This document shows positions 8,251 to 36,001 of a stretch of DNA of 46,708 bases, in pieces. Position 1 is the first letter of the stretch. Every line of letters starts with the position of its first letter. Source of the DNA: Anaeroplasma bactoclasticum (GTDB lineage: Bacteria; Bacillota_I; Bacilli_A; Acholeplasmatales; Anaeroplasmataceae). The position numbers and the translations under genes were made by a program. Below the pieces are notes generated by a model. It was not told the origin of the DNA, searched no databases, and was given only the letters and a program-made list of their open reading frames with translations. Location of the stretch: the NCBI GenBank assembly GCA_023663825.1, contig JAMPGQ010000009.1:1-46708 (forward strand), written 5' to 3'.

Positions 8251-8279
8251 ATTATAACAAAATATGCTATCATTTTAAA
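8251..8279 (-). promoter_or_regulatory. Possible internal promoter before the RpiR gene
   Basis: TTTAAA, 17 bases, TATAAT on the minus strand, overlapping the last codons of the beta-helix gene. The -10 is perfect and the -35 matches four of six. It would let the regulator and nag genes be expressed apart from the surface-protein genes. Confidence 0.4.
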
Positions 8280-11200
8280 GTACTGTATACTTTCGTTTTT
8301 TTCTTTTTTTAAGGAGTATTCCTCCAATCAAAAGGCTAGCACTAAGAACTACTATAACTCCAGTGATACTCCATATTAATATAAAATTGGTGTTTTCAAC
8401 AGCCCCAGCTTCCTTTACCTTTTTGGCATATAAAATGGTATCCTTTGTTACTGCATCCTTATCAAAATCCCATAAAGTGGTATATGTATCATTTTCATAC
8501 CACCCATAAAACTGATAGCCTTCTAAAATTGGTAAATTTGGTGGGGAAATTTTTTTATTTTCTAAAACCGTGATATTTGCAATTACCCCTTCGCCTTCAA
8601 TATAAAATTCAACTGTATAAAGAATAGCTACTTTTTCCCATTTTGCATATAGGGTTACATTTTGTGAAAGCTTACTACCAGGAATTGCTGGTTCTTTCCA
8701 TTCTGGATCTAAATACCAGCCTTTAAATTGATAGCCTTCAAATGTTAGGCTTGGTAATGGATTAGGAAGCTTGGTTATATTTGTAAGGTGTAAAGGTGTA
8801 TCTCCATAACCTTCGTTTTGCCAAAACACTGTATATGTTTTTTCCTCCCATGCTCCATAAAGTATAAGATTCTCTCTTATAAAACTGGAAAAATCAAATA
8901 ATTCTAAGCAGCTCTTATCTTTATACCAGCCTTTAAATTGATAGCCCTCAAGCTTAGGTTCTACTGGCGGAGAAATCATATTTCCCTGTTCTACTTGTTG
9001 TTCTAAATATAAAGTTCCATCTACATATTGAAAACAAACTTGATGATAAACTATAATTTTTTCCCAAGCAGCTTGTAAAATCATATCCTCTACAATCTTA
9101 TTTTCAAAAGCCCAAGCAACACCATCTTTATACCAACCTTTAAAGCTGTATCCTTCTTTTGTAGGAGGTAGTGGGCTTTGAATAGTGCTTCCTTTTTTTA
9201 TGGTTATACCTTCTATGCTTGTACCTCCACAAGAATCAAAAATCACTCTTAAATCTTTTTCCCATTTGGCGTATAGAATTAGGCTTTCTTCTACTAAATC
9301 CTTAGAAAAATCCCATAAGGTATCATCCTTATACCAGCCTTTAAAGCTATATCCTTCTTTTGTAGGGGAGGCTATAGCATCAATTAAACTAAGCTCATCT
9401 ACAGAACAGGTATAAACTTCTATATCATCCACCATAAATTGAACATGATAAGAAATGATTTCTTTTTCCCATTTCGCATAAAGAGTAAGATCTTCTAAAA
9501 TAGTATCTTTGGAAAAATCCCATAAGGTATCATCCTTATACCAGCCTTTAAAGCTATACCCTTCTTTTGTAGGAGATAAAGGGCTTTGAACAAAGCTTCC
9601 TTTTTTTAAAGCTATGCTTTCTATGCTTGTCCCTCCACAGGAATCAAAGGTCACTATCGGATTTTTTTCCCACTTCGCATAAAGAGTAAGATCTTCGCTA
9701 AGCAACATTCCTGGAGTTGCTTTTATCAGCAAGGCTTGATCTATAAACCACCCTAAAAAGCTATACCCTTCTAAGGATAAAAAAGGTAGTTCTAATGGAA
9801 GAGTAGCCGATGTTATACTTGGAAGCTTCTGTGGATACTCATTTGGCATATAGGATATCGTATAAACGCGTTCTATAGAGATTTGATTTATTGTATAGCT
9901 TTTCGTTTGAAGCAAATAATTTTCATTTTCTATAATTACATTTTGATTAGTGTCCTTAAGTAAAAATATTTCATGGTCTCCAAAGGCTAAGGGTGTATTT
10001 GTGTATTTTATACCATCAACATAAATCATGGCATCTGCCAACACAATACGATTTTCAATCTTGTAGCTAACCTCTGTTAAAGTAAGTAGCTCTGATACTA
10101 TAATTACTTCATATTCATCAGAAAGTGTTTTTTTATACTCTACTCCATTACTATAATCCGCATTTCGGCTATAATCATCTTCATTAAGCGTTCTTCTAAT
10201 GTTAACCTTTAACAAAGTATCCAAATAATTTCTATTATTCGTAATCGTTACGTTTTCTGGCATCTTAAAGTTTTGATTATCTATCCGAATTTCTTCGTTT
10301 TTCAAGCCTAAAGAATAAACTTTATTATCTCGAATAGTTATATCAGAAATTTCTGCTGTTTCCATATAATTATATAGTAAGATTAAAAAATCTGTAGTCA
10401 CATATAAGCCTTGAGGCGTTTTTTCATTTGCAATAAAGGCTTTATTGATAAAGATATTTTCTTTAATATAAATGTTTTTTAAAAACTGGTGATCACTTGC
10501 AGTTTGAACATAAAGCAGAATCATTGTTTCTTCTAATATGTTTTTGTAAATGACAAGATTTTCTCCGTTTCGACATTTTACACCACCATCTTGGTTTTTA
10601 TTCATTCCTTTAAAATAATTACCAATAATATCAAGTCCATCAAACATTTTAGCATAGATAATGTGATCTCTATTGTAGCCCTTTGTTGAGCCTGATTTAT
10701 CCTCATAACCAACCTCAACAACATCCGTATTTAAAGAAAAATGATTACTTAAAATTTTCGTGTTTTGGTCTGAATTAATTACATTTATTGCTGTCATAAA
10801 ATAGCCTTGATTAGAAGTATTATCTAAAATATTGGCAGCTTCTACAACCTCTTTTAAAGCTTTAGTTGTATCAGATATAATACTTGTTAACACATCCTCT
10901 AAAAGACCAAAATAATTATCCTTTATGATTACATTCTTTGTTTTATATATACCTATCCCTCGTCCTAAGCTACTAGAATCCCTTAAAAACAAATTCGATA
11001 AAATCGTTATAGAATTATGATTTTTAGAAATATAATATCCTGTTGCTTCACCACCATTTTTATTGTTAGAATCTGGCTGCAAGCCTGAAGATATCGCTAT
11101 GTTTACTAGCTTAGCATTTGCAAAAATATTTTGAGTTATCGTAATACCATCCGAACCAGAATTTTGAAAATACATCGTTACATTATCAAAGATTATATTT

Positions 11201-11538
11201 TTTATGGTGATATTTAATACTTTCTCATAATCATCACGAATATAGCTTTGATAAGTAGAATCAATACCTTTAAAAACAGTCCCTTCTTCTCCTATTAAAG
11301 ATACACCATTTGCTAGATGAATAGTTCCATCTATTCTATAAATTCCTTTATTAAAGTAAGCATCCTTATTCTTTTTTTTGCAAGTCATTAAAAACTCATT
11401 AATCTCATCTGTGTTATCTTGTACGGAGCTTATATACCCTTTCGCCTCTAAATACTCCTTTTCAGCAACTAAAGGAATACAGAAGCTAAAACACATCACA
11501 AACAAGATACATAAAATAATTCCTTTAATCTTTTTCAT
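8275..11538 (-). CDS. Secreted beta-helix protein with seven InlB-type repeats and C-terminal membrane anchor
   Basis: A 1087-residue surface protein. Residues 1-25 are a signal peptide. Residues about 35-460 resemble right-handed beta-helix proteins: an opening like pectate-lyase-type folds (KNKDAYFNKGIYRIDGTI, then GVSLIGEEG) and many NIFxNxx-type Asn ladders. Such folds bind or cleave polysaccharides, but no catalytic residues could be assigned. Residues about 565-1045 hold seven InlB B-repeat (Listeria-Bacteroides) units marked by GYxFKGWY and LYAKWEK. A membrane helix (about 1055-1078) and a KKRKKRK tail end the protein; there is no LPXTG. It is co-transcribed with PL8 (4-base overlap), so a role in binding or trimming the same polymer is likely. 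Confidence 0.75.
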   Translation of the reverse strand: MKKIKGIILCILFVMCFSFCIPLVAEKEYLEAKGYISSVQDNTDEINEFLMTCKKKNKDAYFNKGIYRIDGTIHLANGVSLIGEEGTVFKGIDSTYQSYIRDDYEKVLNITIKNIIFDNVTMYFQNSGSDGITITQNIFANAKLVNIAISSGLQPDSNNKNGGEATGYYISKNHNSITILSNLFLRDSSSLGRGIGIYKTKNVIIKDNYFGLLEDVLTSIISDTTKALKEVVEAANILDNTSNQGYFMTAINVINSDQNTKILSNHFSLNTDVVEVGYEDKSGSTKGYNRDHIIYAKMFDGLDIIGNYFKGMNKNQDGGVKCRNGENLVIYKNILEETMILLYVQTASDHQFLKNIYIKENIFINKAFIANEKTPQGLYVTTDFLILLYNYMETAEISDITIRDNKVYSLGLKNEEIRIDNQNFKMPENVTITNNRNYLDTLLKVNIRRTLNEDDYSRNADYSNGVEYKKTLSDEYEVIIVSELLTLTEVSYKIENRIVLADAMIYVDGIKYTNTPLAFGDHEIFLLKDTNQNVIIENENYLLQTKSYTINQISIERVYTISYMPNEYPQKLPSITSATLPLELPFLSLEGYSFLGWFIDQALLIKATPGMLLSEDLTLYAKWEKNPIVTFDSCGGTSIESIALKKGSFVQSPLSPTKEGYSFKGWYKDDTLWDFSKDTILEDLTLYAKWEKEIISYHVQFMVDDIEVYTCSVDELSLIDAIASPTKEGYSFKGWYKDDTLWDFSKDLVEESLILYAKWEKDLRVIFDSCGGTSIEGITIKKGSTIQSPLPPTKEGYSFKGWYKDGVAWAFENKIVEDMILQAAWEKIIVYHQVCFQYVDGTLYLEQQVEQGNMISPPVEPKLEGYQFKGWYKDKSCLELFDFSSFIRENLILYGAWEEKTYTVFWQNEGYGDTPLHLTNITKLPNPLPSLTFEGYQFKGWYLDPEWKEPAIPGSKLSQNVTLYAKWEKVAILYTVEFYIEGEGVIANITVLENKKISPPNLPILEGYQFYGWYENDTYTTLWDFDKDAVTKDTILYAKKVKEAGAVENTNFILIWSITGVIVVLSASLLIGGILLKKRKKRKYTVL
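9311..9573 (-). repeat. 56-bp near-identical direct repeats inside the InlB-repeat region
   Basis: The stretches 9311-9366 and 9518-9573 match at all but one base and lie 207 bp (69 codons) apart. Further diverged copies occur near 8717, 8930 and 9133. They encode the WDFSKD...GYSFKGWYK part of successive repeats, and identity at DNA level suggests recent duplication and scope for repeat-number change. Confidence 0.85.
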
Positions 11539-13628
11539 TCCTGCCTCCCAAAAGTAATGGTGTGTACAAATTCATCTTCAATTTGATAGGCATTCTCTTT
11601 TATCTTTAAATCCGTGCTTAAAGGCTTATAGCCTTGGATTGAAATTTGGATCGATTGTGCTTTTTGACAAGCCAAACGAACAATCATTTTTTCTTTAGAC
11701 CTTGCTAAAATCAAGCACACTTTTCCAGAAATAAAAAGATCTTTATATTGACAGGATTGGTTTGTAAAGCAATTGATTAATACATACTGCTTATATTCCA
11801 AAATATGAGCATTATTTAAAATCAACAGGCTATATTCATCACATACGCAGTTGTTTTTTGGATAAAGCTGATATACATACTGAGTTGGATTTTTATAATA
11901 TATTCTTGTTCCTTTAAAATACATAGGATCATCAGATTCATTTTGATTCAAATCATAAAAGGATCTTTTTTCATCAAAGGCTTCTATAATAGGAATTGGA
12001 TTACAAATCAGCTTAAACTTAGAAATAATACTATTTTTATTTACCTCATAGACATCATCAAAATTATAAATAGTTGAAACATATTCTTTTGTAGATTTTA
12101 TATTTGTTCCCACACAAACCATTGAATGATCTAAGATAAATTTAGAGAAAAAACCACTGACCTGATTTTTTTGATGAAAGCTTGTATTTAAGATTTCACC
12201 AAAATCAACTCCTGCTGAAAGCAGAGCTTTCATTTTTTGATTTGCTGGTTCTGCTTCTAATGGATTTGTAGATCCATTCCTAAAATAAGGATTTATTCTT
12301 AAAATCTCATTAGGATCTGGAGGCACATTATAATATAAATCATAGGTAAAATTAGATTGATAGTAGCCTAGCTTATTTTCCAAATTGATACTTTCATAAT
12401 TACTTATTCGATCTGAATAGCTAGAAATAGCAATTAAATACTCCTGATTTCTTTTGATATACCGATTCATCGAATTAAAAACAAAGCATTTTGCTTGGTA
12501 GGTATGAAAGTATTTTTCATTATAAATATAATCTAAAAAGCCTTGCTTACAATAAAGCTTTGAAAGTCTATGAAATGCATTTAAAATAATCTCATAGCTA
12601 TAGCTGGCTCCTTTTCTTCTACTTGCGGCTCTACCACGAACACAGTTTAAGGCTTGGTTGTGATATAAAAACGGCATATATGACCTTTCAATCGTATCAT
12701 AAAGCTTTAAAAAGTAGTCAGTACAATCGATTTTAAGTAAGGAATAAATCTCAAGAATTTTAGCAATAGAGCTTAACAAAACCTCGCCATAGGAGGCGGT
12801 ATATGGAATAGATTCATGATATAAAAATCCACCATCCTTATAAAAGCCATTTCCTTTATCCGTTATCATAATCAGCTTAGGCAACAGCATATAAAGCTCT
12901 TGAATTGCCCTATCATTTTGAATAAGTAAATTTCTTAACAAAGCAATATAAATCGTATCTGCCAAATTGGCATAGCTTGTCTGATATCTATCAAGATTGG
13001 GATAATTTCTCCTATAATATTCATATAAAGGATTTGGCAAATAGAAGTTTTCTATAGCCATATAAGAAAAGATTTGTTGTTTTGGAATCTGATTAAAAAA
13101 CAAAATCATAATTTCATTGATACATCTAGGAATACCAATTTCATAAACCCACCAATTTCCAGTGTAATTTTCTTTTCCTTTATAGCTTTTTAAAACATTT
13201 TCTTTTAATTCTATAAGAATTTGTGTTTTTAAAGCTTCATCTTCTTTTATAATACTATATTTAGCTAGACCAACAAGCCTTTTAAAAATATGATAGGTTT
13301 GTTCAGTTTCTTCTTTTGGTAAGTCTACATAGAGTTTTTGAAGATTTGTAATATCAAAATCCTTTTGTTCTAATAAGATCTTTTTATAGCCTAATATAAC
13401 CTCTTCATACTTCACATCATAGGGCTTTAATTGAATTACAAAATCTTTGGATTCATTTATCCTACAACAGGAGAAAGAATCTAAATAAATCGCATAATAG
13501 CCTTGATTTGATATTGGAAACCAATTCTTTTTTCCATCAAGCTCATAAAGAATGTCTCTGCATTCTAAATCCTTTACCACTTCGATTTCTAACAAATATC
13601 TACCTTGATTTGGATTATGAAATTCCAT
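11535..13628 (-). CDS. Cytoplasmic polysaccharide lyase family 8 enzyme (hyaluronate/chondroitin lyase type)
   Basis: A 697-residue enzyme of the PL8 group, which cleaves uronic-acid polymers by beta-elimination. Signature segments: NWWVYEIGIPR (158-168, the aromatic patch), Asn221 in YANLADT, His271 and Tyr280 in FLYHESIPYTASYG, and RGRAASR (331-337). These correspond to the known Asn-His-Tyr-Arg catalytic set of PL8. There is no signal peptide and the enzyme lacks the N-terminal binding domains of secreted PL8 lyases, so it probably acts inside the cell on imported oligosaccharides, giving unsaturated disaccharides for the GH88 enzyme. Its stop overlaps the next gene's ATG by 4 bases. Specificity (hyaluronan or chondroitin) is not set by these motifs. 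Confidence 0.88.
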   Translation of the reverse strand: MEFHNPNQGRYLLEIEVVKDLECRDILYELDGKKNWFPISNQGYYAIYLDSFSCCRINESKDFVIQLKPYDVKYEEVILGYKKILLEQKDFDITNLQKLYVDLPKEETEQTYHIFKRLVGLAKYSIIKEDEALKTQILIELKENVLKSYKGKENYTGNWWVYEIGIPRCINEIMILFFNQIPKQQIFSYMAIENFYLPNPLYEYYRRNYPNLDRYQTSYANLADTIYIALLRNLLIQNDRAIQELYMLLPKLIMITDKGNGFYKDGGFLYHESIPYTASYGEVLLSSIAKILEIYSLLKIDCTDYFLKLYDTIERSYMPFLYHNQALNCVRGRAASRRKGASYSYEIILNAFHRLSKLYCKQGFLDYIYNEKYFHTYQAKCFVFNSMNRYIKRNQEYLIAISSYSDRISNYESINLENKLGYYQSNFTYDLYYNVPPDPNEILRINPYFRNGSTNPLEAEPANQKMKALLSAGVDFGEILNTSFHQKNQVSGFFSKFILDHSMVCVGTNIKSTKEYVSTIYNFDDVYEVNKNSIISKFKLICNPIPIIEAFDEKRSFYDLNQNESDDPMYFKGTRIYYKNPTQYVYQLYPKNNCVCDEYSLLILNNAHILEYKQYVLINCFTNQSCQYKDLFISGKVCLILARSKEKMIVRLACQKAQSIQISIQGYKPLSTDLKIKENAYQIEDEFVHTITFGRQE

Positions 13629-13654: not shown

Positions 13655-15199
13655 TTACTTTACATATTTTTGAATTGTTGTAGTAATTGCATCTGTTCCA
13701 GCCTTTTTCATTGCTGCAACATAAGAATCCCATTCACTTTGGCTGATAGTAGTAGATCCTTTATTCAACCACTGACTTACTTGTTCTAAATATACTGTAT
13801 TCACGCCACTTCTATACGCATTTACAGATTGATAGTCTGCATTAGTTAGCTTTATATTTGGATAAATAAGCTTATTATAATTCAAATTTAAATAATTATT
13901 AGATTCATATAAGTTCATTGCCTTTTTTGCAGGCTCAGATAGCCAAGCCTCTTCATAGGCAAAGGTTTGTACTCCTGGAGATTGAAGCTGAGCACCAATA
14001 TTATATAAATTAGCCAAGGCTGTAGCTTTATCATTTAAAATCTTATCTGTATAGCTATAGCTTGAACCAGTTTTTGTAAAATGCTCGCCTTCAATACCAA
14101 AATTCAATTGTTCATGCCCTGTTGGACTAAAGAAATAATCAATCCACTTCATTAGCTTGATTTGATTTTCTAAACTCGTTGCAGAATTAATAGCCGTAAC
14201 TGTACCGATTTGCTTACGAATTGTTGGTTCATATTTTGATCCATCGCTTCTAGTAGGAGGTGCGATGCATACAACCTCAAAGCCTTCAACTAAATTTTCA
14301 GCATACACATCATCATTAAAAGAATACGTTGTTCCAATCCAGTCATGAGTAGCTCCACCACTATTTTGAGCAAAATAGGTTACACGCTTATCCTCCGTAG
14401 CAGGTGTTAAAATGTTAGGATCGATTAAACCCTCCTTAAACCACCCGGCAATATTTTCTATTGCTGTTTTAAATTCAGGCTGGATAGCTCCATACTGAAC
14501 GACTCCTTTTTCATCTAAATAATATTCTGCAGTAGCTCCCCATAAGGATGCTAATTCAGAAATTGCAAAATCTAAATCTCTATCGAAATATGGATAGATA
14601 TTAGAAAATGTCGTTAATAAGCTCTTATTTGCCTTAAAGGCTTTTAATAATTTGTGAAAATCATCAACGCTCATCGCATCTAAATTATTTTTATCTATTC
14701 CTTCAGGAAGTTTGTTGTTTTCAGCAAGCTTATTGACCCAGTCCTGACGGACAAAGAAGGCCTTAGCTGTTTTACCATCTGTATAAAAAGGAATACCATA
14801 AATTTTTCCATCACTTGCGGTAGCCCAAGCTTTCTTCTCTGGGTTCTCCTCAAAGAATTTTTTCAAATTAGGTGCATGCTCTGAAATTAAAGGTGTTAGA
14901 TCTAAAAAGATTTCATCCTTTAATGCAGTTGCCTCTATAGTATCCTGATCATTTACAACTAGATTAGCGTCCTTTCCTCTCAAATTATAAATGGTATCAT
15001 AATTAGAATCATATTTTTGAAGTACTCCTGTAAGCTCAATTCCTGCATATTCATTTGCTTTTTTGAATACCTCCATATCAGAACGATAAATAAAATTATC
15101 CTGATACAAAAATATTGTTAATTCATCGCTTCCTCCACAGGAGGTAAGTGTTAAAATGCTAGTCGCTATTAAAACGATCATTAGTAATAGTTTCTTCAT
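13655..15199 (-). CDS. Oligosaccharide-binding lipoprotein of an LplABC-type ABC importer
   Basis: A 514-residue family-1-like extracellular solute-binding protein. The signal peptide ends in the lipobox LTSC (Cys21), so the protein is lipid-anchored outside the membrane. The mature part has the LplA/LipO pattern (GKIYGIPFYTDGKTAKAFFV, then RQDWVNKL) found with LplB/LplC permeases, both encoded about 8 kb upstream in the same operon. It would capture glycosaminoglycan oligosaccharides. Its first 41 bases overlap the end of the heparinase-type gene; a GAGGGG site inside that gene serves its ATG, so translation is coupled. Confidence 0.9.
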   Translation of the reverse strand: MKKLLLMIVLIATSILTLTSCGGSDELTIFLYQDNFIYRSDMEVFKKANEYAGIELTGVLQKYDSNYDTIYNLRGKDANLVVNDQDTIEATALKDEIFLDLTPLISEHAPNLKKFFEENPEKKAWATASDGKIYGIPFYTDGKTAKAFFVRQDWVNKLAENNKLPEGIDKNNLDAMSVDDFHKLLKAFKANKSLLTTFSNIYPYFDRDLDFAISELASLWGATAEYYLDEKGVVQYGAIQPEFKTAIENIAGWFKEGLIDPNILTPATEDKRVTYFAQNSGGATHDWIGTTYSFNDDVYAENLVEGFEVVCIAPPTRSDGSKYEPTIRKQIGTVTAINSATSLENQIKLMKWIDYFFSPTGHEQLNFGIEGEHFTKTGSSYSYTDKILNDKATALANLYNIGAQLQSPGVQTFAYEEAWLSEPAKKAMNLYESNNYLNLNYNKLIYPNIKLTNADYQSVNAYRSGVNTVYLEQVSQWLNKGSTTISQSEWDSYVAAMKKAGTDAITTTIQKYVK

Positions 15200-18100
15200 C
15201 TTTTTTACCCCTCTTTTTTAAAATAATTACTATAATTACTACTGCTATAGTAAGTAAACCTATAGATCCCACAATACTGCCAATAAGAATTGGAAGATTA
15301 GAAGAATTGTTCTGTTGTGGTGTATAATTATTATGATAAAATTCAACTTTAGAAATTGTTGTTTTATCATCATTGTTATTACCGTTAAATACAATTTTGA
15401 TATATTTTGCTTCAATAAAGCCTAAGGAATATACTTCATCTCCCATATTATTTGTACTTTGACCACCAAAGTAACAACTCTCATAAGTAATACCATCAAG
15501 ACTATAATAAATATCAAAATAATATGTATTTAACAAGCCTCCAGAAAATCTCATTAAAACGTTTGTTATCGTTTTTATATCCTCAAACTCAAAGACTACG
15601 ACCTCTCTTTGTTCAGAAGAAAAGGTAGTTGTTCTTTCCCCGTCTAAAAGATTTTCAACACCATTACTACCACTTACATTTACAACTGGAATTTGTTTAA
15701 ATTCCTCATAACCATCAATAAGAGTATCTACAATAAAACGGTAAGAATATTCTTTTACCTCTTTTGTTTGCAAATCCGTCACAATTACCTTTGTAAATTG
15801 ATTAAAGGCTGTTGCTTTTTTTACCACTACCGTATATTTTTCTTTATCATAGGTTACAGTTAAATTTGGAACCTCTTTAACAGATTTGTCCAATTTAACA
15901 ACATAAGTATATTGATAAGGATTGAAAACATATTTATAAAGGTTCCCAAGCTCAGCTTCTACCTTTATATCCTCAACTGAAATATCAGTTTTAGGTAAAG
16001 CCTCATCTAGACTCCACTGATCTAAAGGTACAATCTCATACTTTTCAAAGCTTGTAATTTCTTCTAATGTTGGAATAAATACGACATTTAGTGTGCCAGA
16101 AACCACATTTTCAAGCTTAATCACTAGCTTATTTATACCCGTATTATCTAAATTACAAAATTCTCCGATTGTTCCTGGTAAAGCAGTTGCAGGCATAACA
16201 CTAAAGCTTCCTATTTCACTATTAATATAGGCATATAGCGTTTTTCCATTTAGAATTAATCTTGCAAGCTTGTCATTTATAATTTCAATTCTAGCCTCTG
16301 TATGAGCACTCCAATAAACAACTGATTCATCTCGCAATTCAAATTCATCTTGAATCATAATTTTTGATCTATTGTCAAAAAATTTTAATCCTCGATAAGC
16401 AGAAACCACATCTGTTTTATACACGTTGCTAAGATTAACTATAGAATAGCCACCACTACTATTTGTTTCAAATTTTATTATTGGGGCAGTTTCATAAGGA
16501 TCCTGTTGTAAAACAGGATTTTTTTCTGGATTAAATACTAAAGTGTTTTGTCCCTGTGCATTCTTTTTATAATAGGTCCATCTTTGATAATCATAGTCCC
16601 AAAAGCCGTTTGGTACAACAATGTTATAGCTTTCATTACTATAATTACCAATAAACCTTTCCCCAAGAGCATATATTTCAAAGGTTCCACTATCTAAATT
16701 CTTATGAGCAAAGGATCCACTTGCACAATCAATTCCCTTTAAGCCTGTAAAAATAGCCATTTCATCACCAAAGGCAGATCGGAAGGTAGCAAGCTCATGA
16801 TCCTCTAATAAATAATCTAAAGGATCCATTGTATGTAAGTTGATATCATCAAATAACCCTGGTCGATACCACAATAAATTCATAATATTATATTGCTCAT
16901 TATCATCAGCTAATTTACTCAATATAGCGGCATTAATATTATTTTCATCAATCCTTGTATACCATAATAATGCTGGTTGATTATTTGAATATTCACTTTC
17001 AGCATAATAGAAAGACTCATAATTTGGACTAGATGTGTATAGTGGATAATTAATATAATCCATAATTCCTTTAATATCACTTAAGCCAAAAGAATTAATT
17101 TTACCATCTGTTTGTCCATATAAATTTCTAAGTGTGGCAAGCAAAGAGACCATATTCCTATGAGCATAAATAGAATAAGCAGGTCCTTCAGGGAAACCAC
17201 CAGATTCAGAATAATGGACTAAACCATTTTGTAAAAATCTAAAGGCTGTAATGATAACCTGTGCAGACATTTGGCGAATATTTATAGTTTGAGTATTTCC
17301 TCTTACAGTAACCTCTACTTCTTTATCATAGCTTAAGGTAGCTAATGCTGCTAAAGCTAAATCTCCACAAATCAATAAGCAATGATTGTTTCCATGAAGC
17401 AATACATTTACATTCTGTAATGTCTCAAAAAAATAGAAGCCTTCTTCATAAAGTGCTTTAATAACCATTTCCTTTTGGATATCACTCAAGGTATCCTTAA
17501 TATAGCTATAAGCAAAGGAAACGCTATAGGTTGCCATCGCAGCATCTAAGAATCCATTCGTATCTTCTCCCCAGGAAAGTCTTCTTGTCTTATCCGTATT
17601 TTCTATAAAATCTTCATCTTGAACCAAATATCTCATCTGTTCCCAACAACGCATCGCATATTCTTTATTTCCAGTCACCTGATAAAGAATAGCAAACTGT
17701 TCCATTGCAGATCGTCCGTTTGCAGGTACTGTTGTAGCCTGATAATGAGCTAAATTTTTCTCATAATATTCTACCCAGCGAACAATGTATTCATCATTTG
17801 CATTATAACCCGCTTTAATCTCTTGTAACCACTCATCATTACTTAATAAATAAATTCCATCAAGCTTTCCACTTGAAGCTAATTCATCAAATTTAAAATC
17901 TGTTTCATCTGGTAACACATATAATGTTGTAGTTATAACAGACTCTGTATCATTATTATGAAGAAGTAAGCTAAAGCTATCATATCCATAAAAATCTTTT
18001 GGAGGTGTGTAGTTATATAATACTCCATAAATGATTTTTCCTGTACTTGAATAGTACCTATCTTGAATTTCTTGGACTACACCATCTAAAAAGAGCTCAA

Positions 18101-19823
18101 CCTCACCACCATTTTTCGTTGTAAGCTTTAAGCTTCCATCCTTAGCTGTAGCATAAATACTACTATAAAACTCTGCTTTTTCCTTACGTAAGGTATATTC
18201 ATTTCCTGCTGTTTGAAATGCAGAACGCTTCGTATATGGATAAACAACTTCGATATCATTACAGGTGATTTGAACATATCCACCATTATAATAAGTAGAC
18301 AATTTAGAATCATAAATCTTTCCACCAGCTGAATAATTATACTTATTCTTACTTGTTTCCCAGCTTAAAGCTTCATTCTTGGGCGTAGTTAACCAAAAAT
18401 CCGTTTGAAAACAATCATCATAAATTGCCTTTATATTTACTTGGATTTCAACAACCTGATATCCTTTTTCATCATCAAAAACCACAATTTTAAACGAATC
18501 ATATTCTGTTCCAATAGTATAAACATCTCGATTCGGTGAATAAATCACTTGATTGTTTTTAATATAATAGCTTCCCATTTTAGGACTACTATATTTGAAA
18601 ATCTGATAAGAATTACTATCTGTTACATGAACATCAATCGCTATAGATGAATCTTCTTCAACCTCTACTAAATTATTTTCATTTACCTCTGCATGAATAC
18701 CATCCTTTTGACCTACAATTACTAAAATTTGAGTTTGATAATCAAAAATCAAATCAGATATAGTAACATAGGTTATTCCAGAGGACAAGCCCTTGATTAC
18801 ACCAGCTCCTGATACTTCTAAAACGGAAGTATCACTCACCTGATATTCATAATTATAATCTATATTAGAGGCTGGATTTGTAGTGATACGGATTTGTTTT
18901 TGTTCTCCAACCGCTAGTTCCTCTGTTTTGTTTAACGCAGATATAGAAAGGTGATCTGGTTCTACAGCACGATATAACTCTACATCATCAAACCAAATTT
19001 CACCTGTATTTCCAGATGTATAAAGCTCAAGTTTTAAAGCCTTTTCGCCCTCTTCTATTCTAAACACATCCGATTTAACATTCGTCCACTCAAAAGTCCC
19101 GTTTAGCTTATCAGTTAAGGTTTTATTCTTGTTATCTTGATTTACACGAATATACGTGTCCTTAGAAACTTCATTTCCTTTGATTCTTGCAGTAACATAA
19201 TATTGTCCAGGACCAACATTGTAAGTTTTATATAGTACAGATTGCGAGATTTTTTTGTGGTTATAATGAACTACATTATTTCCATCCTCTTCTACAATCT
19301 CTACAATTTGATTTTCTGTATCTACACTACTAGCAGCACCTACCCATAACCTCCAGCCATTTAAAGTTTCATTAGGCACAGTCCAAGTTGTCCCAACAGT
19401 ATATGCACTAAAGTTTCCGTCCTCACATAAATTCTTTGATACGACATGAATCGTTAGTTCATCAAAGTATTCTTCTGAGGTTAAAGTTAGCTTTGAATCG
19501 CCTTCCTTTAAACCAGCAACTTTAAATTTAAAATTTGTTAAATAAAGTATTTCCTCATTCTCTACTTCAATTTTAAGCATTTGCTTTTCTTCTTCAGTAA
19601 CATAGGGCATAAAGTTATTTGAAAAATCGTATGTTTCCCCTACATCAATCGTCACTTCATCAGGAAGAGACTGCTTAAAAACAGGATACTTTTCTTCCTG
19701 ATTGATATAAGAAGGAGTGCTGTCACCCCGAATAATCATACTATGACGCGTGATGACAGCACCTAAGAAAATTGTTAGAAAAAGAAGAAATAAAGTACTA
19801 ATTATTTTTATTTTCTTCTTCAT
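15159..19823 (-). CDS. Secreted, membrane-anchored heparinase II/III-type polysaccharide lyase
   Basis: A 1554-residue multidomain enzyme. A signal peptide (1-25) and Ig-like/carbohydrate-binding-like modules are followed by an alpha/alpha-toroid and beta-sandwich typical of heparinase II/III. Recognisable pieces: GNNHCLLICGDLALAALA (about residue 811), GGFPEGPAYSIYA (about 876), YYAES near 960, and SFAHKNLDSGTFEIYALGER (about 1040), equivalent to the HxHxDxGSF segment. A discoidin (F5/8 C) domain covers about 1380-1495, then a membrane helix and KKRGKKDEE tail. The catalytic-type His of the usual HAHxD is HKNLD here, so activity needs testing. It probably makes the first cuts outside the cell. 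Confidence 0.8.
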   Translation of the reverse strand: MKKKIKIISTLFLLFLTIFLGAVITRHSMIIRGDSTPSYINQEEKYPVFKQSLPDEVTIDVGETYDFSNNFMPYVTEEEKQMLKIEVENEEILYLTNFKFKVAGLKEGDSKLTLTSEEYFDELTIHVVSKNLCEDGNFSAYTVGTTWTVPNETLNGWRLWVGAASSVDTENQIVEIVEEDGNNVVHYNHKKISQSVLYKTYNVGPGQYYVTARIKGNEVSKDTYIRVNQDNKNKTLTDKLNGTFEWTNVKSDVFRIEEGEKALKLELYTSGNTGEIWFDDVELYRAVEPDHLSISALNKTEELAVGEQKQIRITTNPASNIDYNYEYQVSDTSVLEVSGAGVIKGLSSGITYVTISDLIFDYQTQILVIVGQKDGIHAEVNENNLVEVEEDSSIAIDVHVTDSNSYQIFKYSSPKMGSYYIKNNQVIYSPNRDVYTIGTEYDSFKIVVFDDEKGYQVVEIQVNIKAIYDDCFQTDFWLTTPKNEALSWETSKNKYNYSAGGKIYDSKLSTYYNGGYVQITCNDIEVVYPYTKRSAFQTAGNEYTLRKEKAEFYSSIYATAKDGSLKLTTKNGGEVELFLDGVVQEIQDRYYSSTGKIIYGVLYNYTPPKDFYGYDSFSLLLHNNDTESVITTTLYVLPDETDFKFDELASSGKLDGIYLLSNDEWLQEIKAGYNANDEYIVRWVEYYEKNLAHYQATTVPANGRSAMEQFAILYQVTGNKEYAMRCWEQMRYLVQDEDFIENTDKTRRLSWGEDTNGFLDAAMATYSVSFAYSYIKDTLSDIQKEMVIKALYEEGFYFFETLQNVNVLLHGNNHCLLICGDLALAALATLSYDKEVEVTVRGNTQTINIRQMSAQVIITAFRFLQNGLVHYSESGGFPEGPAYSIYAHRNMVSLLATLRNLYGQTDGKINSFGLSDIKGIMDYINYPLYTSSPNYESFYYAESEYSNNQPALLWYTRIDENNINAAILSKLADDNEQYNIMNLLWYRPGLFDDINLHTMDPLDYLLEDHELATFRSAFGDEMAIFTGLKGIDCASGSFAHKNLDSGTFEIYALGERFIGNYSNESYNIVVPNGFWDYDYQRWTYYKKNAQGQNTLVFNPEKNPVLQQDPYETAPIIKFETNSSGGYSIVNLSNVYKTDVVSAYRGLKFFDNRSKIMIQDEFELRDESVVYWSAHTEARIEIINDKLARLILNGKTLYAYINSEIGSFSVMPATALPGTIGEFCNLDNTGINKLVIKLENVVSGTLNVVFIPTLEEITSFEKYEIVPLDQWSLDEALPKTDISVEDIKVEAELGNLYKYVFNPYQYTYVVKLDKSVKEVPNLTVTYDKEKYTVVVKKATAFNQFTKVIVTDLQTKEVKEYSYRFIVDTLIDGYEEFKQIPVVNVSGSNGVENLLDGERTTTFSSEQREVVVFEFEDIKTITNVLMRFSGGLLNTYYFDIYYSLDGITYESCYFGGQSTNNMGDEVYSLGFIEAKYIKIVFNGNNNDDKTTISKVEFYHNNYTPQQNNSSNLPILIGSIVGSIGLLTIAVVIIVIILKKRGKKDEETITNDRFNSD

Positions 19824-19832
19824 AAACCAACC

Positions 19833-22800
19833 CTACTCCTTGTCTTCTTTGTTTTCAACTTCCTTAGGAGTATGGTTTTTCTTTATAAAATAGAACGCAA
19901 GTCCACCTGCTAAGCCTAATGCAGCAATAACACCAATGACAATTCCAGCAATTGCACCACCACTTAACCCTTTATTTGTCTTATCTGTTACAGGTGGAGT
20001 AACTGCCTTTGGAGTCCACTTTGCATAAAGCGTTGTATCAGCTGTAATCTCTTTTCCTTCTACAGCCTTTTGTGTACAAGCATCATCTAAATACCAGCCC
20101 TCAAAGGTATATCCAGTCTCTGCTAAAACAGGAAGTGTAGGTAATTTAGTACCAGTCACACTTGCTTGAGCAGTGCCGTGTCCCTTTGTATTAAACGTAA
20201 TTGTATAAGTAGTTACAGAAACAGGCACCCATTTAGCGTATAGCGTTGTATTTGCTGTAATAGCAGCACCAGCTACTGCCTTTGTTGTATATGTATCTTC
20301 TAAATACCAGCCCTCAAATAGATATCCATCTGCAGTTGCATTTGGCAATTCTGCAGGTAATGCTACTACATTAGATTCTGCTTGTGGTGCTGTACCATGT
20401 CCTTGCATATCATAGGTTACATTATATTCTTTTACAATTACAGTGATTTCAAGTGTTGCAGCTGGATTATCACTTGCAGTTATAGTGATTGTTGTAGTTC
20501 CTAAAGCAACCTCTGTAATGTATAATTGGTTTCCGTCTAGCTCTGCTTTACAAATTGTTTCATCTGCAACCACGCTTGCTAGTTCACTGGTTGCATCAGC
20601 AGGTACAACATTTAAAGACCATATAGCTTTTTTTGGATTAAAATCATGTAAAATTATTGTAATTGGATTTGTATCAATAGAAATAGTTTCTACTGGTTTT
20701 GTGATTTTAATTTGAATTGTTTTTTCATCTAAACCAACTTTAACAGTGATTGTCACATCACCTGTTTTATCTAAAATAGTAACTAATCCAGCTTCATTTA
20801 CAGTAGCTAATGTTTCATCACTTGAAGTGAATTCTGGTGAAATTGTCCCAGTTGAAGGAATTGGAACAACATTAATTTGATAGGTCTCATTTGTTTTTTT
20901 AACAATTTCTTTAGAAGTATCTACTGCTTGATTTTTATCATTAACAAAATTCCAACTTTCTGTTTTTACACTTTCAAGTTCAACTAGACTTAAATGTGTT
21001 ACATAAGCGTCAATGTCAGCTTCTTGATTCCATGTTCCAATTTCTACCTTGATTCCTTCAAAACCCTTTCCGATAGCATTAACATCTAGATTAATTGGGT
21101 TGGTTTCGAAATAAACCCAACCATTTGTTAATTTTCCTTTGTCGTTTTGTAATGTAACAGCGTAAGGAGCTGCTGATCCATAGGTTATATTTCCATTTGA
21201 AGTATTATAATATGTAAATATTTTTAAATCTATTCTTGATGCCGAAGTTTTAGATGCGGCTTCTGGATTCATTTTAATCCAACCCGTTAATTTAAAATCC
21301 TTATTTTCAGATAATTCAGAAAGTGGTATCCATTTATCTAAATGAGATCCAGATGGATTAGCTCCACCATTACCTGCAATTTTAATTGCTTTACCAAATA
21401 CATCATCTGAAACCACACTGATTTCTGCAAAGGTCTTACTTCCATAGCCCTTGCTTGTAAAACCACTCTTCTCTTCTTCTGCAGCATTCCATACATCAGT
21501 TAATTCATAATTGTTTAAATTTGAATATGCTCCTTGAGTTACTTTAACATCAACTTCTTTTTCTACGCCACTATCATCTGTTGCAGAAATTTTAAGCTTA
21601 GCAGTTCCAGTTTTAAGGGCTGTAAGGATGTCATTATTAAGAGAAACAACATCATTTCCTTCTACAACTTCAAATGCTAAGTCTGTGTTATCAGCATTAT
21701 TAGGGAAGGCTTTAAAAAGTTTATTTAAAGCGAATGATTCACTTACTCCAAGAGTAATTGTATTATCTACAACTACCTTTTCTGTTAAAATATCTGCTAC
21801 TAAAATTGGCTCCACATTTTCTTCAATAGAAAATGTCGTACTTACTGGCTCTGCTAAATTACCATCAAAGCTATAATTTATTGTCAAATTTTCTACTGCC
21901 TTTAAGCCTGTAAAATATCCACTTTCATAGCTAATAATGTCCTCTCCTTCTAAAGAGTAGGTTGTTGTATTATTTTCTGTTGTAGCTAATAAATCTGTAC
22001 CATTTAAGCTGAAAGTGACATTGTAATTAGGACAAATAGAAGGAAGATAGTTCGTATCTGTGCCTGCATAAATAGGGTCAAGCTTTAAGGATGCCCCCAC
22101 CTTTGCAGAAGAAACCAGAGGAGCTGAAACAACTGGTGCGTTATACTCTCCTATTCTTACATAATCCAAATACATATTAATATCTTGACTTGTATTACCA
22201 TTTGGGATATTATAGAAAAATTCTGTCAATTTACCATTAAAGTCATCATTATTAGCAAAATTTGTCTCATAAATAAATTTATTATCTAAAAATCCATATA
22301 TTTTATCCTGAGATGCTGTTCCGTCTAAACCACCATTATTTTCAAGAATAAAGGTGGCCTCATGCCATTCATTTTTAGATACTCTAGCTGTTAGAGTCTC
22401 CATTTTAATCCACTGCCCTTCAGGAATTTGATAATAAGTTCCGTCATCACGCATTCTAAGTAAAGTATATGTCCTACTAGAGCCAATATCTGCTGTATTC
22501 AACCATAAGCCAAATTGTTGTTCTCTACCATGGTCGATGTTAAACTTAAACTTTAAAACCATAGAGCTATTCTCTTTATTAAATAAAGAAGATGCACTAC
22601 CATTATCTCTTATACTAATTTTACCAGTTTGAGAGGCATTTGCCATTGTGCTTACCTTTAAAACCTCAAGATTATCCTTCTGTTCTAATGTAGTAATAAC
22701 AAGGTCTTGCTTACTATTGGCATAAAGATTATGATTATTTGCCCCACCATAAGCACTAATGCTTCCGTCGCCATAATCAAACTCTTCTGTAAAACTGAAA

Positions 22801-22914
22801 TTTTCAGTTAATTCCTTAGGGGCTTCATCTTCTGCGTGAGTTGTTAGACCCCCCCCCCACTAAAGCTATTCCACATAGCATAATAGTGCTTAAAAATAGT
22901 TTTTTGAATTTCAT
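19833..22914 (-). CDS. Phase-variable glycan-binding surface protein (reading frame broken at a G10 tract)
   Basis: The in-frame ORF from 22646 begins without a signal peptide. Upstream, an ATG at 22914 with an AAAGGAAAG site encodes MKFKKLFLSTIMLCGIALVG in another frame, and the two meet at ten G on the minus strand (22849-22858). With nine G the frame runs through as VGGGLTTHAEDEAPKEL into the long ORF, giving about 1026 residues; with ten it stops soon after the tract. The mature protein has a LamG-like module, a CBM-like module, Ig-like BIG2 repeats, two InlB-type repeats (GYLFEGWYL, GYTFEGWYL), a membrane helix and a charged tail. No enzyme motif is seen; it is probably an adhesin or polymer binder. 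Shown out of frame in this sequence. Confidence 0.85.
22849..22858 (-). repeat. G10 homopolymer tract in the signal-peptide coding region
   Basis: Ten C on the plus strand, ten G on the coding strand, between codons 18 and 23 of the surface-protein gene. A length of nine (or twelve) puts the gene in frame. Such G runs are very rare in AT-rich DNA and are classic slipped-strand phase-variation sites. Confidence 0.9.
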
Positions 22915-22941: not shown

Positions 22942-23817
22942 TTATTTTACTGAACCAACCATAACACCCTTTTTAAAATACTTTTGAATAAATGGGAATA
23001 TAATCATAATTGGAACTATCGCAATGATTATTAATGCAAAAGCTGAAACAGTTCCTCTAAATAAGTCTCCAGATTCTCCTGTGCTTTGTAGCATTTTTTT
23101 AACAAGTACCTGTAATGGATAAAGCTTATCCTTTTGTAGAACAATTTCTGCCCAGAAATATCCATTCCAACGGTCTATTGCATAGAACAATCCTACTGTG
23201 GTTATTGCAGGTCCACTGGCAGGAATATAAATGCTTGTTAACATTCTAAAATGAGATGCACCATCAATTTGAGCTGATTCATCAATATCTACTGGTATAG
23301 CAGCAAAGTACGTTCGTAATAGAATTACATTATAGGCTGAAAATGCAAATGGAAGCATAATTCCCATAATATTTCCAAGCATGCCTAAGCTTTTAATATT
23401 CGTATAGGTTGCAATCATTCCAGGCTTTAACCACATAGTCAATACTACAATAATCGACATAATTTTAATTATTTTTAATCCTCTACGAGAGAGTACATAA
23501 GCACATGTAATACTTAAAAATAAGCTAATTGCAGTACCAAGCAGCGTATACAAGATGGTGTTTCCATAGGCTCTCCATATTTCAACATTTTTTAAATGCT
23601 CCATTATATATTCCATTGTAAAGCCTTGTGGTACAATTAATAATTTTTGTTGATTTACTGCTCTAGAGAAGGCTACGGGATCACTAACTGCAGTGATAAA
23701 GATATAAAGTATTGGGTATACCATTAAAATAGATAACACAATTAAAAGTACGTTATTGACAATTCCTAAGATATTATCAAGGTTTAATTTCTTTTTCCAA
23801 GTTAATTTTTTTGTCAT
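22942..23817 (-). CDS. ABC transporter permease, LplC/YtcP type
   Basis: A 291-residue inner-membrane permease of the carbohydrate CUT1/LplC group. Six membrane segments are visible, the first at about residues 20-42. The EAA loop is present as DESAQIDGASHFRMLTSIYIP, contacting the ATPase. It pairs with the LplB-type permease upstream. The first ATG of the longer frame (23835) has no ribosome site; AGGTGA lies about seven bases before the ATG at 23817, which is preferred. Confidence 0.92.
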   Translation of the reverse strand: MTKKLTWKKKLNLDNILGIVNNVLLIVLSILMVYPILYIFITAVSDPVAFSRAVNQQKLLIVPQGFTMEYIMEHLKNVEIWRAYGNTILYTLLGTAISLFLSITCAYVLSRRGLKIIKIMSIIVVLTMWLKPGMIATYTNIKSLGMLGNIMGIMLPFAFSAYNVILLRTYFAAIPVDIDESAQIDGASHFRMLTSIYIPASGPAITTVGLFYAIDRWNGYFWAEIVLQKDKLYPLQVLVKKMLQSTGESGDLFRGTVSAFALIIIAIVPIMIIFPFIQKYFKKGVMVGSVK

Positions 23818-23828
23818 TTTATTATCAC

Positions 23829-24833
23829 CTACCATAACTGTGTATCTGAAACCTTTTTAGCAATTTTATTTACTATGGTTACTAGCACAATAGCTACCAC
23901 CGCATCAAATAAACCTATTGTTGCGGCTAAACCGTAATTCGGTTGTCCTACTGTAGGGCTTAAGCTGACATTATAAACATATGTGCTTATGATTTCTGAG
24001 GTTGGCTTATTATATACAGTTTGCAATAACAACACCTTTTCATAGCCCATTGATAAAAGCTTACCAATTTTTAGAATCAACGTAATAATAATTGTAGGTG
24101 CTATCCCTGGAAGTGTCACATGAAAGATTTGTCTGATTTTTCCTGCCCCATCCATAGAGGCTGCCTCATATAGGGAAGTATCTATTGCAGATAGGGCTGC
24201 CAAATAAATTAAGGAATTATATCCTATTGTTTGCCATAATTCCATAATGGCATATATCCAACGAAATAAATTCGGGTTATTTAATAAATTAGGCTTGTTA
24301 TTTGGATCTACGATTCTCAATGCGGCTAAAATGTTTACAATCATACCTGTATCTGACTTTAAAAATTCGATAACTAAATTACAAACAACTACTGCCGAAA
24401 TGAAGAAGGGAAGGAAGGTGGTTGTTTGGGCAATTCCTTTTACTACTTTACTTCTAGATTCGTAAATCATAATTGCAAGCAGGATTGCTGCTGGAAAACC
24501 AATAACTAGTACTAATAAATTTAATAACAGAGTATTTCCTAATAAGGAGAAAAATCCATCCATTGAAAAGAAATAAATATAGTTTTCAAATCCTATAAAT
24601 TTACTTCCAAAAACACCCTTGCTTACGCTATAATCCTGAAACGACATTAAAACATTAGAAACGAAGGGTACGAAAACGAAAAAGATAATCCATATAAATG
24701 CTGGCAAAAACAATAAATAAATTTGCCAATTATATTTCATATGCTTCTTAAATTTTTCTAAAAATTTGTTTTCCTTAGGATCTTTTGTTTTAGATGCTTC
24801 TGTACTTGTTTTATTTTTTATTTCAAGTTCCAT
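23829..24833 (-). CDS. ABC transporter permease, LplB type
   Basis: A 334-residue permease of the LplB family with a charged N-terminal cytoplasmic stretch (about 40 residues), the first membrane helix at about 43-65 (LLFLPAFIWIIFFVFVPF) and the EAA loop DTSLYEAASMDGAGKIRQIF. It forms the membrane channel with LplC for oligosaccharide uptake. The ORF can be extended 11 codons upstream, but TAGGAGG lies seven bases before the ATG at 24833, so that start is chosen; this leaves a 10-base gap to the GH88 gene. Confidence 0.92.
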   Translation of the reverse strand: MELEIKNKTSTEASKTKDPKENKFLEKFKKHMKYNWQIYLLFLPAFIWIIFFVFVPFVSNVLMSFQDYSVSKGVFGSKFIGFENYIYFFSMDGFFSLLGNTLLLNLLVLVIGFPAAILLAIMIYESRSKVVKGIAQTTTFLPFFISAVVVCNLVIEFLKSDTGMIVNILAALRIVDPNNKPNLLNNPNLFRWIYAIMELWQTIGYNSLIYLAALSAIDTSLYEAASMDGAGKIRQIFHVTLPGIAPTIIITLILKIGKLLSMGYEKVLLLQTVYNKPTSEIISTYVYNVSLSPTVGQPNYGLAATIGLFDAVVAIVLVTIVNKIAKKVSDTQLW

Positions 24834-24843
24834 ATTCTGCCTC

Positions 24844-26073
24844 CTACCAATAAGGATTCCAATCATCCTTGTATAATCTTAACAAAAGCTCTACAAAGAA
24901 ATAGTCTCCAAAAATCAAATATTCATCCACACCTAAATTCCCATGGAAAAAATATACCCCACTTTTTAAAATGCCCTCAAGATTATCTCCAAGATACTTT
25001 TCAGCTAACGCTTTTGTAATTGCTAGACTTGCATTTAAATAAATTTCTTTATCTAAATCTTCCTTAGGAAGGTTTTTTGATAGTTCAAATAAACCAATAG
25101 CTGCAATTGCTGCGGCACTTGTATCTCGTTGCCCATCATCTTCTGTAAAGATTAAATCCCAATTGCACACCAAATCGTTAGGTAGCCTGTTTAAAAAGTA
25201 GTTTGCTAAGCATTTAGCTTGATTTAAAAATTCTACATCCTTAGTATATCGATATGAAATTGGGAACCCTAAAATCCCCCAGGCCTGTCCTCTTGCCCAA
25301 CAAGAATCATCAGAGTATCCTTGGTGAGTTGAACCATATTTTGGTTCTCCTGTTATAACATCCATATGAAAGGTATGAAAGGTAGATGCATCCGCTCTAA
25401 TAATATACTTACTAGCTGTTTTTGCATGATTGTAAGCCATCATAAAGTATTGATGATCTTTGGTAAAGGCATCTGCAAAATAAAGCAAGGGAATATTTAA
25501 GTTACAATCAATAATCATTCTGCCTCTTTGCTTTTCATCATTCATATCGCCCCAGGCTTGTAAAATTTTAGCCTTATCAATATAACGCTTTGATAAAAGC
25601 TTAGCAGCCATAAGAGAAGTTTCTAAAGCCTTCTTAGAGCCTGTAATCTTATAATCTGCAACAGTTGAAATACTATATAAAAAACCAATATCATGATGCT
25701 TAAGTCCAGCCTCATCTTCATTCTTATGATAATGATTTTCTATTCTTTGGCGAAAGGAATCTGAGTGCTTTTGAGCCTCAAGCTTGTATTTTTCATCTTG
25801 CGTATATTCATACATCAGCCATAAAATACCACTCCAAAAGGAATTTGTCCAAATACTTTCATTATTGCTACAATCCCATTTTAAATTCCCTACTGACCCA
25901 TAAACATAATCCTTACTGCACGCCCTGGGAAAATTGTCATCGTGAAATTTTAGAAGCATATTATCTACAATCCTAACAACCTTATCTAAAGTCATTTTTA
26001 CATCACTTTTATCAAATTTAGGTCTGGTTTTAAATTCATTTCTTTTAATTTCTTCTAGCTTAACTCGTCCCAT
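24844..26073 (-). CDS. Unsaturated glucuronyl hydrolase, GH88
   Basis: A 409-residue alpha/alpha-barrel hydrolase that removes the 4,5-unsaturated uronic acid from disaccharides made by lyases. The two catalytic-type Asp are present in KHHDIGFLYS (D128) and MIIDCNLNIPLL (D189), with the aromatic active-site loop SCWARGQAWG. There is no signal peptide, so it acts in the cytoplasm downstream of PL8. Products would be GlcNAc (to the nag genes) and an unsaturated uronate. It overlaps the preceding gene by 14 bases. No sulfatase is encoded nearby, fitting unsulfated substrate. Confidence 0.95.
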   Translation of the reverse strand: MGRVKLEEIKRNEFKTRPKFDKSDVKMTLDKVVRIVDNMLLKFHDDNFPRACSKDYVYGSVGNLKWDCSNNESIWTNSFWSGILWLMYEYTQDEKYKLEAQKHSDSFRQRIENHYHKNEDEAGLKHHDIGFLYSISTVADYKITGSKKALETSLMAAKLLSKRYIDKAKILQAWGDMNDEKQRGRMIIDCNLNIPLLYFADAFTKDHQYFMMAYNHAKTASKYIIRADASTFHTFHMDVITGEPKYGSTHQGYSDDSCWARGQAWGILGFPISYRYTKDVEFLNQAKCLANYFLNRLPNDLVCNWDLIFTEDDGQRDTSAAAIAAIGLFELSKNLPKEDLDKEIYLNASLAITKALAEKYLGDNLEGILKSGVYFFHGNLGVDEYLIFGDYFFVELLLRLYKDDWNPYW

Positions 26074-26869
26074 TATTCACCTCTTTAATTTCCGTTCCCC
26101 ATGCCTCAAATTGAGTTAGTGCAGGAAAATCAGATAATTTTTCTCCTTTAATTAAATTTTTCAAAACAATAAAGCTTACCTTTTTACTTTTAAACTTAAA
26201 GGCCTGCCTTTTCTCTGTTTTGTCTAAATGTATAACCATTTGACTATGATCTGAAAACTCTAGGGTGGCTTGTTTCCAGTAATTATCATGAGGGAAATCT
26301 GCTCGTAAGGTTAGAACAACCTCATCAATCATCACTTCTCTACCAAAGTCAATTTTAAATTCGGCATTTGGATTTTTATTAATTCCCCAGCTTTGATAAG
26401 GAAAACTCCCATGTGAATCATTATAGTAATACCCATCAATTGCATTTCTACTTGCAAACACACACTCATTTCTTGTTTCTACATTTGCAACAGAATGTGG
26501 ATAAAAAGTAGTATTGAAATGCTCATCGTATGGATTATAGGCCATATTCCTTCTTTGATAAACCTCTTCTTCCTTAGCCTCTTCCACATGAATAAGATGA
26601 CAATCTCCATAAAATGATTTTGGGGAATAATTTTTTCTTTGATTTACCTCTGGAATATGATAAATAAAAGAACTTTCAGGAACATACACAATTGCCTCTT
26701 CCATTGTGTCCTCTAAACGAATTTTATAAAATCCTTTTACTTTATCACAATCTACAATCATCCAATCCCCATCTTGATATTCAAAATTGTAAACAATGCT
26801 CAATTTTTCTGCTGCCAAACTAATATACAATTCGTTATTTTGCTGATTGATTATTTTTAATTTTAACAA
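26060..26869 (-). CDS. Cytoplasmic protein with discoidin-like C-terminal domain, first gene of the GAG operon
   Basis: A 269-residue protein with no signal peptide and no known catalytic motif. The C-terminal half (about residues 135-255) looks like a discoidin/F5-8-C jelly roll: ASRNAIDG, then WGINKNPNAEFKIDFGREV, a typical A-x-DG...W...IDLG pattern. The N-terminal 120 residues are unrecognised. It precedes GH88 with a 14-base overlap, so a role in handling the unsaturated sugar is possible. The start appears to be TTG at 26869; GGAG lies only one base before it, whereas the G10 tract ends seven bases upstream, so translation may depend on that tract. Confidence 0.65.
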   Translation of the reverse strand: MLKLKIINQQNNELYISLAAEKLSIVYNFEYQDGDWMIVDCDKVKGFYKIRLEDTMEEAIVYVPESSFIYHIPEVNQRKNYSPKSFYGDCHLIHVEEAKEEEVYQRRNMAYNPYDEHFNTTFYPHSVANVETRNECVFASRNAIDGYYYNDSHGSFPYQSWGINKNPNAEFKIDFGREVMIDEVVLTLRADFPHDNYWKQATLEFSDHSQMVIHLDKTEKRQAFKFKSKKVSFIVLKNLIKGEKLSDFPALTQFEAWGTEIKEVNNGTS

Positions 26870-26876
26870 GCTCCTA

Positions 26877-26886
26877 CCCCCCCCCC
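26877..26886 (-). repeat. G10 homopolymer tract at the operon leader/ribosome site
   Basis: Ten G on the minus strand, seven bases upstream of the TTG start of the first operon gene and just after the cre site. No in-frame upstream ATG exists, so the tract is in the leader. Poly-G can pair with the CCUCC of 16S rRNA; length changes would alter spacing or strength. Confidence 0.85.
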
Positions 26887-26941: not shown

Positions 26942-26970
26942 ATTGTATCACTAATATTGGAGCAAGTCAA
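26942..26970 (-). promoter_or_regulatory. Promoter of the glycosaminoglycan operon
   Basis: TTGACT, exactly 17 bases, TACAAT on the minus strand, 73 bases upstream of the TTG start. No equally good promoter was found in the next 18 kb of minus-strand genes, which are spaced by 0-30 bases. Confidence 0.85.
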
Positions 26971-34002: not shown

Positions 34003-34225
34003 CTAAAAATAAAAGCCCTTAAGTATTAAACCTAAGGACGATATATACCGTGGTGCCACCTTAATTCTAGTATAAAACTAGCACTTAAATCCTTTAACGC
34101 AGAAATACGATTCTTATCCAAGGTAGATTCATCTAACGTGTTTAACTAGCTTCCACCAACCACTAGCTCTCTATCTAACTCATCAATTAGACTACTTAGC
34201 CTCTTCACTTAAGATTACTGAAATT
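34003..34225 (-). promoter_or_regulatory. T-box riboswitch for serS
   Basis: The leader holds the canonical T-box segment AAGGTGGCACCACG, whose TGGC part pairs with the free tRNA acceptor end, and a specifier loop reading GAATCTACC, with UCU (Ser) as the codon before the conserved A. A terminator (CCTTA/TAAGG, then GCTTTTATTTTT) follows at about 34005-34037, 23 bases before the serS ATG. Confidence 0.93.
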
Positions 34226-35992: not shown

Positions 35993-36001
35993 GAGGAACA
36001 T

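Follow-up and report, generated by a model that had tools for sequence, protein, structure and literature searches.

The locus analyzed here raises the question of whether a run of ten G in the signal-peptide codons of a surface-protein gene switches this gene on and off. Most of what is known of G-tract switching comes from Gram-negative pathogens of mucosal surfaces, and many poly-G tracts of Campylobacter and Neisseria lie in glycan-synthesis genes. The run lies in the window, i.e., the whole stretch of 46,708 nucleotides that was analyzed. An initial annotation had read it as an on/off switch of a surface protein.

The plus strand of the window carries ten C at exactly 22849-22858, i.e., ten G on the coding strand of a gene running leftwards, just where the initial annotation had placed them. 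The site is made up of three features, all on the minus strand:

22859-22914, minus strand: ATG and initial stretch of the signal peptide (MKFKKLFLSTIMLCGIALV), with a final codon that takes in the first G of the tract
22849-22858, minus strand: homopolymer of ten G (G10), candidate slippage site, inside the signal-peptide codons and one base out of frame
19833-22848, minus strand: body of the surface protein, with a cleavage-like site between LTTHA and ED, an all-beta domain, repeats and a C-terminal transmembrane helix

The ATG at 22914-22912 is preceded by AGAAAGGAAAGAAAAAA, and a purine-rich Shine-Dalgarno-like stretch (AGAAAGGAAAG) lies ahead of it. Reading from this ATG gives MKFKKLFLSTIMLCGIALVGGG, then SNNSRRR and a stop; its translation is MKFKKLFLSTIMLCGIALVGGGSNNSRRR, ending at that stop. 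The tract lies within codons 19-22, and the stop is reached seven codons past it; a shift by one base therefore cuts the product short. This position fits the earlier description of the tract as placed early in the ORF, as is typical of contingency loci. The frame that follows the tract starts with WGGGLTTHAEDEAPKELTENF... and stays open for 1008 codons with no other stop. Both the one-base shift that had been annotated between ATG 22914 and the long frame and the count of 1026 residues for the continuous protein proved arithmetically right. The start codon and the signal peptide are conserved in relatives.

The 937-aa ORF at 19833-22646 begins at the first internal ATG of the 1008-codon frame, and the methionine at its start is unconserved in relatives. 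This ATG was ruled out as the normal start; beginning there would cost the protein its signal peptide as well as some of its N-terminal domain.

The N-terminal domain of the surface protein is all-beta (residues about 15-240). Ig-like (Big_2) domains and Listeria-Bacteroides repeats are present as well, and the protein ends in a transmembrane helix with a short charged tail (KKNHTPKEVENKEDKE). An LPXTG motif was not found at its C terminus, and no sortase was present among the genes scanned. The N-terminal domain matched no Pfam family, and a profile of 12 orthologues touched laminin-G domains only at E = 0.1. AlphaFold reached a pLDDT of 35 for the whole protein without an alignment and a poor 48.5 for the N-terminal domain. 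With this low-confidence domain model, Foldseek returned mostly lectin-like and lyase-like beta folds (TM 0.25-0.38), which served as a hint only. Thus, the protein is membrane-anchored and probably glycan-binding, the binding being a guess that leans on the gene context.

This context is a leftward operon, of which sugar-processing genes are also part. Read in the direction of transcription, its features are:

26942-26970, minus strand: operon promoter TTGACT-N17-TACAAT, overlapping an inverted repeat (TGGAGCAA...TTGCTCCA)
26877-26886, minus strand: second G10 tract, in the operon leader at the Shine-Dalgarno position of the first gene
26060-26869, minus strand: first operon gene, with a TTG start and a weak match, scoring under the curated cut-off, to an F5/8-type discoidin-like domain
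24844-26073, minus strand: GH88-type unsaturated glucuronyl hydrolase
22942-24866, minus strand: two ABC sugar-transporter permeases, whose genes immediately precede the switched gene in those relatives that were examined
15159-19823, minus strand: large exported protein, carrying both heparinase II/III-like and carbohydrate-binding domains
13655-15199, minus strand: 514-aa protein with no family match, a possible solute-binding protein by position only
11535-13628, minus strand: polysaccharide lyase of family 8 (PL8, hyaluronate/chondroitin lyase type)
8275-11538, minus strand: second exported-type protein, with seven Listeria-Bacteroides repeats

Judged by these gene families, the operon looks like one for glycosaminoglycan degradation. 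Much of its gene order recurs in congeneric relatives, and also in four genomes that belong to another genus. The promoter is followed by a cre-like operator (CGAAAGCGTTTTCAA), and the promoter layout likewise recurs in relatives. Since the large exported protein is encoded only 9 bases downstream of the switched gene, it is open to polarity. The second G10 (26886-26877), which did not appear in the initial annotation, lies seven bases before the TTG start of the first gene. It is absent in the relatives examined, which have an ordinary Shine-Dalgarno sequence there. This tract might modulate how the first operon gene is translated.

Elsewhere in the window, a T-box leader (RF00230, 124.7 bits) at 34031-34217 lies directly upstream of a seryl-tRNA synthetase gene. 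Three plus-strand genes at 34871-37742, including one for a radical SAM protein, run opposite to the rest of the window and have a lower GC content; they form a possible peptide-modification cluster.

The initial annotation had suggested comparing tract length in related genomes. Three other species of the genus (G005, G003 and G009) were observed to have syntenic orthologues with GGG GGG GGT (G8) in frame at the same signal-peptide codons, although these three lineages may not be independent, and G003 and G009 look close to each other. In all three, this region encodes xxGGGLTSxAE(D/E). In G002 the G run is broken by one A, and similar residues are encoded without a run in G006 (GGA GGA GGC) and G001 (GGA ACA GGA), the Gly-rich motif being conserved among the orthologues at the protein level. 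Since several orthologues of the genus have no run at the signal-peptide site, the switch is not universal.

Tracts were also observed elsewhere in the gene family. The orthologue of G004 has no signal-peptide run; its frame is lost at a G9 within the Ig-like region (L209:12639-12647), exactly where its tblastn match splits into two frames. In another genus, a G9 just upstream of the G019 orthologue abuts TATAAT (L211:12626-12634). Where G019 has this upstream G9, G013 carries an interrupted remnant, GGGGGTGGG (L213). The same gene thus bears a G tract at three different places, i.e., in the signal peptide, in the Ig-like region and in the upstream promoter. When relatives were searched for signal-peptide G tracts with one strict pattern, nothing came up beyond the window itself, G005 and a match that is probably due to chance. 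A scan of named genomes at the protein level turned up no relative.

The run is not an inherited codon choice, since synonymous sites are saturated, the coincidence of GGG codons is near chance and GGG is rare. At conserved four-fold codons of the operon, third-base identity between the window and its relatives was about 0.40. GGG made up 70 of the 674 Gly codons in the window, and the number of GGG codons shared with relatives was close to that under independence (5 versus 2.0 expected in G009, the rest at or near expectation). Retention of the G run despite this synonymous turnover therefore requires selection or recurrent gain.

The G10 in the signal-peptide codons is not alone in the genome; beside the second tract in the operon leader, further runs were found that the initial annotation did not include. 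Pattern searches of the own genome (2.06 Mb) yielded 14 G runs of at least eight, eight of them of at least ten. Markov models (orders 1-4), for which the window minus its two G10 tracts served as training sequence, predicted 0.2-5.6 runs of at least eight and 0.002-0.2 of at least ten, and the order 0 model 0.03 of at least ten. The earlier judgement that a G10 is extremely unlikely by chance was thus borne out, and together the in-frame G8 orthologues and the genome-wide use of G tracts support the on/off reading.

Most of the other long G runs sit between TTGACA-like and TATAAT hexamers. In the own genome, these promoters have the form TTGACA-N9-G(8-11)-TATAAT with spacers of 17-20, and the loci of the family mostly have 17-19. 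About ten such promoters were observed (L003, L004, L007, L009-L013, L015 and L016). Downstream of them, signal-peptide-like starts, judged by eye, were seen at L009, L010, L011 and L015, and lipoprotein-like starts at L012 and L016. The repeat family of the surface protein is also encoded downstream at L009, L012 and L016. At L013, L004 and L003, the promoter tract precedes genes for a zinc-ribbon membrane protein, a helicase-like protein and an unknown protein, respectively. Among 100 relatives, 13 carried 32 TTGACA-N-G-TATAAT promoters in total, and in a sample of the phylum the pattern occurred in 14 of 392 genomes; the reversed-pattern control gave 0 in both cases. A scan of named species genomes, run without a control, found the pattern in at least 120 stretches, many of them from gut Clostridia and Bacilli.

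Two of the promoter loci gave additional observations. The G8-spacer promoter at L004:2998-3005 lies about 365 bases upstream of the ORF for the large helicase protein (AAA_11/UvrD-like), possibly a defence gene subject to phase variation. The 3' end of L007 and the 5' start of L013 apparently represent one G11 promoter, which suggests that both ends are assembly breaks at the tract.

Three other explanations have to be weighed. The tenth G may be an assembly or sequencing error, in which case the gene would be intact and the run would merely code for the conserved Gly-Gly-Gly motif. G homopolymers are error-prone in short-read assemblies, the Gly-rich motif is indeed conserved in the protein, and contig ends lie within about 160 bases of 5 of the 14 own-genome tracts of at least eight G, where the assembler evidently struggles. 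True length mixtures would, however, break contigs at the tracts just as sequencing trouble would. Moreover, the run occurs in four genomes and is not explained by codon use, and the G004 orthologue is likewise out of frame at a G run. An error in the assembled sequence is regarded as unlikely.

That the assembled allele is out of frame would also be expected if the frameshift were fixed, i.e., if the gene had recently become a pseudogene in this strain and the tract were its mere breakpoint. This is highly improbable: the 1008-codon frame has no other stop, and its length and otherwise intact state speak for a change that is recent or reversible. The orthologues of most relatives are intact and open, and therefore this is not a dead gene family; in addition, G tracts recur genome-wide at regulatory places. 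Slippage might instead occur at the level of expression, with RNA polymerase or the ribosome yielding a fixed full-length fraction in every cell as a dosage device. Transcriptional slippage can be triggered by a stretch of ten identical bases, and less product might be needed from a gene that sits within an operon. A conserved recoding site, however, would not allow for relatives with an in-frame G8 or with no run at all, and the promoter-spacer tracts of the same genome cannot act by recoding. As the sole explanation, such a dosage device is given very little weight, although slippage during expression can coexist with mutation.

We conclude, with a probability of about 0.84, that the G10 at 22849-22858 is a contingency locus, i.e., a slippage switch of the membrane-anchored surface protein. 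We infer that slipped-strand mispairing in replication would add or remove single G in the tract and thereby shift the signal-peptide start codon into or out of frame with the protein body. From the assembled allele, which is out of frame, only the short peptide would be made, and the cell line would be OFF or nearly so; full-length protein could leak from the OFF allele by transcriptional or ribosomal slippage. The population would thus become a mixture of cells with and without the surface protein, which, being encoded in a glycosaminoglycan-degrading operon, probably helps to capture or bind glycan at the cell surface. Polarity may perhaps also vary the levels of the downstream lyase genes. 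A counter-point is that all three G8 orthologues are in frame, whereas a free switch would show some in the OFF state, as is the case in G000 and, at another site, in G004.

The signal-peptide tract would belong to a set of G-tract switches spread over the genome, the majority of which would act by promoter spacing. A broader idea takes together the three alternative tract sites across species, the two-level tracts on one operon (ribosome-binding site in the leader and signal peptide) and the about ten promoter tracts, and views them as combinatorial, genome-wide switching of the cell surface and of host-glycan foraging. This extension is tentative, and we hold it to be somewhat less likely than its opposite.

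MutS and MutL are full-length in the genome, by which loss of mismatch repair was ruled out as the cause of the tracts. As both proteins are present, the slippage rate need not be extreme, and both should lower rates. A wall-less state of the species of the window was likewise ruled out, since penicillin-binding transpeptidases are present. They were found in its genus (g1), whereas none were found in several further genera (g2, g4, g5) and families (f3, f5) belonging to its order; therefore, walled and apparently wall-less lineages are mixed in this order.

Comparable switches are known from other bacteria. In the sortase-dependent pilus loci bbr_0113 and bbr_1889 of Bifidobacterium breve UCC2003, an intragenic G tract separates the codons of the Sec signal from those of the remaining protein in the first surface-protein gene of the cluster (PMC9187656). 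In the reference genome both loci are out of frame; slippage during replication was shown by maximum depth sequencing, and the downstream cluster genes are affected by polarity (PMC9187656). As in these loci, the tract described here separates signal part and body in a gut bacterium whose reference allele is out of frame. In contrast to the LPXTG pilin and sortase of this Actinobacterium, the protein described here is membrane-anchored, probably glycan-binding and encoded in a glycosaminoglycan-degradation operon, the bacterium is of Anaeroplasmataceae type, and slippage is the proposed mechanism. The 5' poly(A) tract of Listeria monocytogenes inlA, in which a reversible frameshift leaves a tiny truncated product (PMC2831843), likewise places a homopolymer close to the start of a gene for a surface protein; inlA, however, is a single locus with poly(A) instead of poly(G).

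In the Neisseria porA, opc and fetA promoters, a homopolymer between -35 and -10 alters spacing and expression (cited in PMC2791445). The TTGACA-N9-G(8-11)-TATAAT promoters of the own genome are built alike, whereas the G10 at 22849-22858 is coding, and the promoter form occurs here at about ten loci of one AT-rich Bacilli-type genome. Hypermutable coding G tracts that switch surface structures on and off are reported for Campylobacter and Neisseria (PMC8355987, PMC5084427). These taxa are distant, and the coding case described here concerns the signal peptide of a surface protein.

Among gut commensals, few G-tract switches have been shown experimentally, e.g., those of B. breve. The switch proposed here is of a known kind in a new lineage; what is added is its conservation in relatives, its movement within a gene family and its place in a genome-wide set. 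The promoter signature TTGACA-N9-Gn-TATAAT can be searched for in any metagenome. An uncultured and poorly known gut lineage of a mollicute-containing order appears to switch surface proteins stochastically, one of them encoded in an operon for host glycosaminoglycans. If true, this would mean bet-hedged foraging on host glycans, which is a testable claim.
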